Positions 12,081-51,297 of a DNA stretch of 64,000 nt are shown here, one piece after another; position 1 is the stretch's first letter; every line of letters starts with the position of its first letter. The translations under genes and the position numbers were made by a program. The DNA is from Novosphingobium sp. CECT 9465 (lineage in GTDB: Bacteria; Pseudomonadota; Alphaproteobacteria; Sphingomonadales; Sphingomonadaceae), in the NCBI RefSeq assembly GCF_920987055.1, contig NZ_CAKLBX010000001.1, positions 3,644,501 through 3,708,500 of the forward strand, written 5' to 3'. The notes beneath the pieces were generated by a model, which worked only from the letters and a program-made list of their open reading frames with translations, had not been told where the DNA came from and made no database searches.

Positions 12081-12085
12081 ATAGA

Positions 12086-12154
12086 GAGCCGTATGCGCTG
12101 AAAGGTGCACGTACGGTTCGGGGAGGGGAAGCGCTTATGCGCTTCCTACTCCAC
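12086..12154 (+). ncRNA. Group II intron catalytic domains V and VI
   Basis: Domain V is 34 nt (12086-12119): strand GAGCCGTATGCGC, terminal loop region TGAAA, and strand GTGCACGTACGGTTC. The AGC triad is at 12087-12089. Domain VI forms from AAGCGC/GCGCTT with a TTAT loop and a G-rich/C-rich outer stem containing an unpaired A (12148) seven bases from the 3' splice site. The same structure occurs at 2068-2136 in the other copy. Confidence 0.87.
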
Positions 12155-49666: not shown

Positions 49667-50034
49667 CACGGAATCTCTCCTGCCAAACCTTCGTTGACTG
49701 TATTGCCGATATAACACGGCAATACGATCCTCGCCACGTCGTTCGTGGATCGGGACGGGAGGTTGGTCGGTGCAGGGTGCTGCGCTGCAAGCTTGCCAGC
49801 TTGTTTCACGCCGAGGCGCAGCGGAGGCCGGGAGCGCCGAGGAAATGCGCAAGGCCGTCAGGCCATTCTCCCCGCCAACCTCGCCTCGGACCTTGCGGTG
49901 AATCAGAAGACGGCTTCGCCGTAAGCGGTATCTCCGCGCACTCTGCTTCCCCTGCGCCTCAGCGCGAAACGACCCGCCCGCTCCAGACAAAAGGTGATTA
50001 TCGTTGGCAAACGCAGGCGCTGTAAACCCACCCC
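49667..50034. other. Intergenic region left of IS110; no gene recognised
   Basis: About 370 bp with no reading frame that resembles a protein on either strand. It should contain the promoter of the DUF2807 gene (an A/T-richer stretch ACTGTATTGCCGATATAACACGG at 49697-49719 may be part of it, on the minus strand) and the junction with the IS110 element somewhere near 50030. Confidence 0.45.
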
Positions 50035-50079
50035 CCAGCCCCTTGTATCTGGACGTTGTTGGTTGATTGCGATGTAATC

Positions 50080-50240
50080 GGCTGATCGCCGGGGTGGGTG
50101 GCCACCCACCCCGGCGCTGCGGTGCTGTCGCCCGTCACCCCTCAGGCAGTAACCGTAAGGGAGCCTGGGACCAGCACCGCTTGTCACGCACGACCGAATA
50201 GTCGGCAGGTGTCTCAACCGTACGGACAAGGCAGGTTACC
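50080..50240 (+). ncRNA. Candidate IS110 bridge RNA region
   Basis: Non-coding DNA directly upstream of the recombinase, the location of bridge RNA in IS110-group elements. Features: a 30-bp perfect palindrome (50087-50116); GCGGTGCTG (50119-50127) pairing with CAGCACCGC (50172-50180); inside it CAGGC (50143-50147) pairing with GCCTG (50163-50167). This gives nested stems with internal loops as expected for a guide RNA. Guide-target pairing cannot be tested without the empty site. Confidence 0.5.
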
Positions 50241-51170
50241 GTGATCGAAACGATTTGTGGAGTGGATGTTAGCAAGGCCTGGCTTGATGGCTGGATCGAG
50301 GCCGGCGGCTATCGCCGGTTCGCCAATGATGAGGCGGGGATTGCTGCGTTGGTGGACTGGGCCGGTCGCCATGGCGCAGGGCTGGTGGTGATGGAATCCA
50401 GTGGCGGGCTCGAACAGGACGCATTCCTGGCGCTGTGGCGCGCAGGCATGCCCTGTGCCCTGACCAATCCCAGAGCGGTACGGCATTTTGCCGAGGCGAT
50501 GGGGCGGCTGGAGAAGACCGACCGTATCGATGCAGAGGTCATCGCCTGCTTTGCTGCGGCACGGCGGCTACGGCCAACGCCGCCACCTTGCGACGAACAA
50601 CAAAGGCTTAGCGCGCTTTCTGCCCGGTTGCGGCAAGTGACAGGCGATATCACGGTGCAAAAGCAGCGCCTGCATTCCACCCGCGATCCGCTTGCCCTTG
50701 CCAGCCTGAAAGAGGCCATCGCCTTCTTCAATACCCAAGCCAAAGCGCTGGCCCGTGAAATCGCAGGCCTGATCGAACACGATCCCGTCTGGACCGCGCT
50801 TGATCGCACACTGCGCTCGGTCAAGGGCGTGGCAGATCGCACCGTTGCCACCCTGCTGGCCGAACTGCCCGAAATCGGAACCCTGTCGAACAAGGCCATC
50901 GCCAAACTTGCAGGCCTTGCGCCCATCGCGAACGACAGCGGCAAACGATCCGGTGCCCGATCTATCCGTGGTGGAAGAAGCTCTGTCCGCTCGATCCTCT
51001 TCCTCGTCGCCGACATCGTGCGAAAATTCGATCCGGCCATGGCAGAGTTCCGCCAACGCCTGCTCGACCAAGGTAAACCCAAAATGGTCGTCCGCATCGC
51101 CCTCGCCCGAAAACTGCTCGTCCGACTCAACGCAAAAGCACGCGAAACAAGAGCTGAAATTGGTCAGTGA
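50241..51170 (+). CDS. IS110-family recombinase (transposase)
   Basis: 309-aa enzyme with an N-terminal RuvC-like DEDD domain and a C-terminal transposase_20 domain. Acidic residues: Asp in GVDVSKAW (about 9), Glu in VVMESSGG (about 52), Asp-Asp in EKTDRIDAEVI (about 94-97). The C-terminal domain contains LRSVKGVADRTVATLLAELPEIG and the catalytic Ser in the SIRGGRSSVRSILF region (about 246-252). GTG 50241. Intact, so possibly active under RNA guidance. Confidence 0.92.
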   Translation: MIETICGVDVSKAWLDGWIEAGGYRRFANDEAGIAALVDWAGRHGAGLVVMESSGGLEQDAFLALWRAGMPCALTNPRAVRHFAEAMGRLEKTDRIDAEVIACFAAARRLRPTPPPCDEQQRLSALSARLRQVTGDITVQKQRLHSTRDPLALASLKEAIAFFNTQAKALAREIAGLIEHDPVWTALDRTLRSVKGVADRTVATLLAELPEIGTLSNKAIAKLAGLAPIANDSGKRSGARSIRGGRSSVRSILFLVADIVRKFDPAMAEFRQRLLDQGKPKMVVRIALARKLLVRLNAKARETRAEIGQ

Positions 51171-51297
51171 CACTTGACCTGTCAGATAGTCGCTCCCTTT
51201 AGGGAGGGGGCCGAGACTTGCGCTTCTGCAAGAAGCATTAGTCGCAGCGGGGAGGGTGCTCTACGGCCCGTGTTTGCAAACGGCATAATCGCCAAAG

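Follow-up and report, generated by a model that had tools for sequence, protein, structure and literature searches.

A predicted bridge RNA with its guides, core and natural target sites in an IS110-group insertion sequence of Novosphingobium sp. CECT 9465

The bridge RNA mechanism of IS110 elements and their targeting of REP-type repeats are both already known from published accounts. Bridge RNAs have been predicted in 85.7 % of IS110s, with longer right guides in some of them, and pairing follows a rule by which the left guide binds the bottom strand and the right guide the top strand (PMC11208160). For IS621, a promoter spanning the circle junction and a set of handshake positions have been described. 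Four of four copies of ISRm19, an alphaproteobacterial case, were located in REP sequences (PMC1525189), and mutations weakening the 5′ UTR fold of ISPpu9 raised translation (PMC8450116). For comparison, the IS621 sequence was read from E. coli NZ_CP063349 (L106). There, a tandem partial left end (1785–1870) precedes IS621 and stops at the element's own target-guide sequence, as if the guide's own DNA had been used as a target.

The window, the whole stretch of 64,000 nucleotides that was analysed, contains at positions 50042–51194 what its sequence identifies as a fresh member of this known kind, an IS110-group insertion sequence with a predicted bridge RNA. Guidance of such an element by bridge RNA is almost certainly the best account of this interval. 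An earlier note on this DNA, whose reading holds up for the most part, had placed the element at 50035–51190, correctly as to its presence but with the ends slightly off, since the 12 genomic copies give the limits used here. All 12 are 1153 bp long with the terminal CTs counted. Eight of them are identical, including the copy in the window, one differs at 6 positions and three differ at 14; their recombinases share 99–100 % protein identity. The core CTs lie at 50042–50043 (left) and 51193–51194 (right), and all 32 copies examined (12 own, 20 from relatives) have CT at either end. The left CT stands 199 nt ahead of the start codon, and the right CT comes 22 nt after the stop codon, the long left and short right ends of the IS110 group. 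In the IS1111 group, by comparison, the bridge RNA is found in a long right end, an arrangement that the earlier note had named as the alternative. Both in the window and in 15 aligned related left ends the structured RNA lies 5′, and the right end has just 22 nt, so the element is not of the IS1111 type.

50042–51194, + strand: whole insertion sequence, CT at both ends counted, present in 12 copies
50241–51170, + strand: IS110 DEDD-Ser recombinase, 309 aa, GTG start, assigned by profile matches and catalytic residues
51171–51194, + strand: right end (22 nt) plus core, holding the donor left half ATAGTCG and the −35-like TTGACC

The open reading frame at 50241–51170 matched DEDD_Tnp_IS110 (PF01548) and Transposase_20 (PF02371) above the Pfam cut-offs and scored 183 bits against the NCBIfam IS110 model, over its cut-off of 140. 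The protein thus combines the DEDD RuvC-like N-terminal domain of the group with a Tnp domain carrying the catalytic serine. Residues D9, E52, D94, D97 and S233 align with D11, E60, D102, D105 and S241 of IS621; as the catalytic residues are kept, the enzyme looks intact, in agreement with the first description of the locus. Among solved structures, the only sequence matches were the ISCro4 and IS621 transposases.

A DNA search of 98 genomes gave matches in 19, with the whole element in the own genome only and short matches elsewhere. Close relatives besides the own genome were few, found in 1 of 397 in a family sample (E ≤ 1e-60), in 3 of 385 in a class sample (E ≤ 1e-75) and, besides G871 itself, in 1 of 394 in the family of genome G871 (E ≤ 1e-85). 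Six plasmid records matched, one of them over the whole element at 66 % identity, and were kept outside later analyses. No relative of the element was detected among viral contigs. The own genome also encodes a second, distant IS110-type recombinase (L013, G000:C1:900428-901321) with 35 % identity, and the CTTGTAT start was absent from the left end of that locus. Elsewhere in the window, two RF00029 group II intron matches (2066–2136 and 12084–12154, both 70.6 bits) share a strand, with about 10 kb between them.

The left end is predicted, from its sequence, to encode a bridge RNA composed of a 5′ stem-loop, a target-binding loop and a donor-binding loop.

50085–50118, + strand: 5′ stem-loop of the bridge RNA, containing the 30-bp palindrome 50087–50116, in which 12 of 15 pairs change on both sides
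50119–50180, + strand: target-binding hairpin, with lower stem 50119–50127/50172–50180 and inner stem 50131–50134/50166–50169
50184–50244, + strand: donor-binding hairpin, whose closing stem 50184–50188/50240–50244 includes the GTG start codon

The fold was derived from an alignment of the window left end with 15 related left ends (protein identity about 54–70 %) from Sphingobium, Mesorhizobium, Rhizobium, Bradyrhizobium, one alphaproteobacterial MAG and two further genomes. Taken as a fixed structure, the consensus fold pairs 96.7 % of cells across the 16 left ends and has changes on both sides at 18 of 43 pairs (73 such cells); because the structure comes from the same alignment, the pairing score is favoured more than the compensatory changes are. 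None of 500 shuffles reached the pairing, compensatory-pair or compensatory-cell figures, and pairing fell to 24–42 % when partners were shifted by 1–3 columns. The covariation check on related leaders that the earlier note had suggested came out in favour of the structure. Two of the elements listed in that note were recovered: the 30-bp palindrome, here identified as the 5′ stem-loop, whose helix surrounds an invariant GGCC and contributes the bulk of the covariation (compensatory at 12 of 15 pairs), and the stem 50119–50127/50172–50180, whose corresponding helix covaries at 5 of 7 pairs. The inner stem proposed there (50143–50147/50163–50167, CAGGC/GCCTG) can be drawn in the window, but its outer two pairs fail in 7 and 9 of the 16 sequences and compensatory changes were absent at every pair; it was rejected in favour of a different inner stem (50131–50134/50166–50169), which is invariant and only consistent with the alignment. 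Both outer stems of the donor loop, the closing stem included, are invariant as well, so that covariation cannot test them and the donor loop is less supported than the rest.

Single-sequence folding was a weak witness for structure, with z scores of −2.46 for 50047–50245 and −1.09 for 50117–50245, and several relatives, when folded whole, paired the leader with the donor loop in place of the consensus fold. A shared hairpin in the leader was considered and discarded, as the predicted fold varied between sequences and was often no better than shuffles. The window leader alone folds well, with 3 of 200 shuffles as low. Within the element, Rfam gave nothing at gathering score; five matches at E up to 10 were each below it.

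Guides for the target were assigned in the first internal loop.

50135–50142, + strand: left target guide TCACCCCT, 8 nt, the last two letters facing the core
50157–50163, + strand: right target guide AAGGGAG, 7 nt, pairing with CT+CCCTT

In the window copy AAGGGAG fits CT+CCCTT at 7/7 positions, and the left guide, which ends CCCCT, faces CCC+CT. The search pattern set the guide lengths and a 14-nt spacer in advance, and no gap falls there in the 16 aligned sequences. Over the 32 of 32 copies analysed (12 own, 20 from relatives), right guides fitted their own targets at 147/160 positions, compared with at most 87 when slid by 1–3 bases, and left guides at 125/192, compared with at most 98. 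Six right-guide types were distinguished, each fitting its own targets best. Permutation of the 29 distinct rows (11 guide pairs) gave 134/145 on the right (permutation mean 89.5, maximum 114 in 10,000) and 116/174 on the left (mean 95.8, 0/10,000 as high), figures that overstate certainty because the rows are related; sliding preserves this relatedness. On the left, position −2 covaries (26/29, 0/2000 permutations), −3 and −1 fit in 28/29 with hardly any variation, −5 and −4 are weak (16/29 and 14/29) and −6 fits in 4/29. Among the 12 own copies the fit was 1/12 at −4, 4/12 at −5 and 0/12 at −6 (with 8 wobbles at −6); the left guide fits the own sites well at only about three core-proximal non-core bases. 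The first loop is thus complementary to both target strands in the manner of a bridge RNA, strongly on the right and mainly at −3 to −1 on the left. The absence of such complementarity had been named at the outset as evidence against the proposal; instead the loops complement the insertion flanks, and guides change together with targets in relatives.

The sample retained a copy on a short contig with a poor fit to the right target (L070) and a Mesorhizobium sp. L2C084A000 copy (L065) in which a partial left end with an N stands in tandem beside the left flank. This N-containing partial end (1221–1297) precedes an intact copy and is possibly an assembly artefact. Left out were L075 (44 % identical), L078 (truncated), the partial loci L067–L069, L071, L072, L074 and L101, and the distant own copy L013. 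One additional copy (L166), read by eye only and outside the guide counts, has a right guide fitting 5/5 positions and a left guide with CC where the core needs CT.

The target consensus is CCC-CT-CCCTT, of which CCC-CT-C is common to all 12 own sites.

CCCCTCCCTT: target sequence
49994–50041, + strand: left part of the host palindromic repeat, outer limit approximate
51195–51293, + strand: right part of the host palindromic repeat, outer limit approximate

The exact 10-mer is present at 6 of 12 own sites, the other six deviating from the exact right target. It occurs five more times in the genome, once as the other arm of the repeat occupied by L052; the count for a reversed control pattern is five too, which means that the leftover target motif is not enriched. 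Six of the 12 copies (L044, L045, L048, L051, L052 and L053) are inserted in a dispersed palindromic host repeat of about 140–150 bp centred on the palindrome CCCCTCCCTTNAGGGAGGGG, with L044 and L048 in opposite orientation within it. The description of the insertion point as a clean intergenic site was thus half right, as the element lies inside a dispersed repeat. Joined together, the flanks of the window copy had 36 matches within the own genome, of which many were partial and some fell on the flanks of other copies; counting the own genome, 25 of 59 genomes of the genus gave matches. Among 58 loci checked, 36 alignments cross the junction, three of which (L112, L129 and L122) were set aside as far arms of occupied repeats, two being the same place. 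In the remaining 33 uninterrupted repeats CT stands at the core position in 31, which shows that an empty site with a single CT exists, the state that the earlier note had proposed to look for in a relative. Many of the 33 carry CCCGC, not CCCTT, to the right of the core, so some repeats lack a full match to the right guide.

A TTTGCAAAC-like sequence was observed near both ends of the host repeat (L108, L110, L113, L115 and the joined flanks of six own copies), and the dispersed repeat might itself be a small mobile element. Copies L050 and L055, at the chromosome and on contig C2 (193 kb), have near-identical left flanks with the same junction, and L054 is similar, which suggests either that homologous sites were hit or that a stretch was copied.

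The second loop and the two ends carry the letters assigned to the donor, to a candidate promoter and to the start of translation.

50198–50206, + strand: left donor guide ATAGTCG, 7/7 with the right-end terminus, then GC where the core would need CT
50226–50230, + strand: right donor guide ACAAG, pairing with CT+TGT of the left end
50228–50235, + strand: AAGGCAGG, likely ribosome site of the recombinase by position, overlapping the right donor guide
50046–50051, + strand: TATCTG, putative −10-like box of a promoter formed in the circle, from consensus and IS621
51174–51179, + strand: TTGACC, −35-like box in the right end

Between the left donor guide and the right-end terminus, identity is 7/7 in 26 of the 32 copies and 6/7 in the remaining six. 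The guide letters that face the core read GC in all 12 own copies and GT in L057; the remaining 19 copies have CT. As eight own copies are identical, GC does not seem to stop movement. ACAAG is found in 32/32 copies, and the right donor pairing is 5/5 with the core counted. Across a circle junction, TTGACC and TATCTG would be separated by 17 bp. At the handshake positions, the C after the right target guide faces the donor G and the G after the right donor guide faces the target C; both are invariant and by themselves no proof. AAGGCAGG is unchanged in 16/16 left ends; in all 16, the GTG start is predicted to fall within the stem that closes the donor loop. The leader is complementary to the left donor guide at no fewer than 7/9 positions, G-U counted, in 14 of 16 sequences (7/9 with three G-U in the window, 4/9 in L076 and L080); no compensatory changes accompany this complementarity, which is therefore recorded as an observation only.

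The ends, the core, the complementarity of guides to target and donor, the covariation and the catalytic residues were read from the sequence, and the circle, transcription, RNA binding and recombination chemistry are modelled on IS621. The element would be excised as a circle, in which the right-end TTGACC and the left-end TATCTG are brought together over the CT core to form a promoter. Transcription of the left end from this promoter would yield a bridge RNA roughly 185 nt long. This RNA would pair through its first internal loop with the genomic target, the left guide with the bottom strand and AAGGGAG with CT+CCCTT of the top strand, and through its second loop with the element's own circle junction (ATAGTCG/CT/TGT). 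The DEDD-Ser recombinase, binding the RNA, would then join target and donor at CT. Because what the guide recognizes is one arm of a palindromic intergenic repeat, insertion would often take place there, outside genes.

Other explanations of the left end and of the repeat association were weighed. The left end could be mainly a regulatory 5′ UTR that hides the ribosome site, with the protein alone picking the target. In all 16 left ends the start codon falls in a predicted stem whose hairpin also contains AAGGCAGG, which would fit this view; so would ISPpu9, for which mutations were used to test a 5′ UTR that conceals the ribosome site (PMC8450116). However, a mere UTR does not explain why loop letters change with the insertion site between elements, and the guide and UTR roles are not exclusive, so that this explanation as a replacement for guidance is very improbable. 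It is harder still to credit that the repeat association reflects selection against harmful insertions with little true target specificity. In the cases seen the repeats are dispersed outside genes, where insertions are presumably tolerated, but CCC-CT-C is present at all 12 sites, including those outside the repeat, and finding at 6 of 12 sites an exact 10-mer that occurs five times elsewhere in the genome has a binomial chance of about 4e-33 under a uniform-insertion null that ignores selection. Equally hard to credit is a degenerate or decoy left end mobilized in trans by the RNA of another copy: one of 12 copies (L052) is altered in the target-loop stem and left guide, but the window left end is identical in eight copies and three of the other four differ only inside the coding part.

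Guidance by a bridge RNA therefore stands as the preferred reading, and some overlap between the bridge RNA and the translation start is a reasonable idea by analogy, given the shared position of start codon and ribosome site and the 5′ UTR data of ISPpu9. A fuller version for the clade is offered tentatively and is rather unlikely as a whole. Bridge RNA and recombinase translation start would be fused, with the start codon in the donor-loop closing stem and the ribosome site overlapping the right donor guide; the extra 5′ leader could mask the left donor guide; one transcript would serve as message or guide; and the recombinase, by binding the RNA, would shut off its own synthesis.

The closest likeness is to IS621 (PMC11208160, PMC11208158). 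The two share a CT core, a left end starting CTTGTAT, a promoter (here putative) across the junction, the order 5′ stem-loop, target loop and donor loop, and the guide strand rules; the right donor guide (ACAAGG/GCAAGG) and the catalytic residues are also alike. In contrast, the recombinases are only 28 % identical (309 aa here, 326 aa in IS621), and the right target guide has 7 nt here and 4 in IS621. In the own copies the left guide effectively amounts to some 3 non-core bases, unlike that of IS621. The 5′ stem-loop starts about 44 nt from the core, compared with about 20 in IS621, leaving about 24 nt of extra leader, and the start codon lies inside the donor-loop stem, whereas the ATG of IS621 comes just after the comparable stem (by eye). 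The ISEc21 seekRNA, of the IS110 type, resembles the RNA predicted here in being an upstream non-coding RNA with a bottom-strand match before a top-strand match, and a 74-nt short form is reported for it (PMC11187229). ISRm19, ISPpu9, ISPpu10 and ISPa11, also of the IS110 family, insert into palindromic extragenic repeats (PMC1525189); these are other elements in other repeats, likened by description. A limited literature search outside ISfinder returned no published description of exactly this element. New here, as read from sequence, are the guides, core and target of one further IS110 member: a compact 309-aa recombinase, 28 % identical to that of IS621, with guides, core and 12 natural target sites assigned. 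It provides a case for guide rules in which the right guide is long and the effective left guide short, and the six natural right-guide types of its relatives help in learning those of programmable recombinases. It is also a further example of host palindromic repeats as landing sites of IS110 elements.
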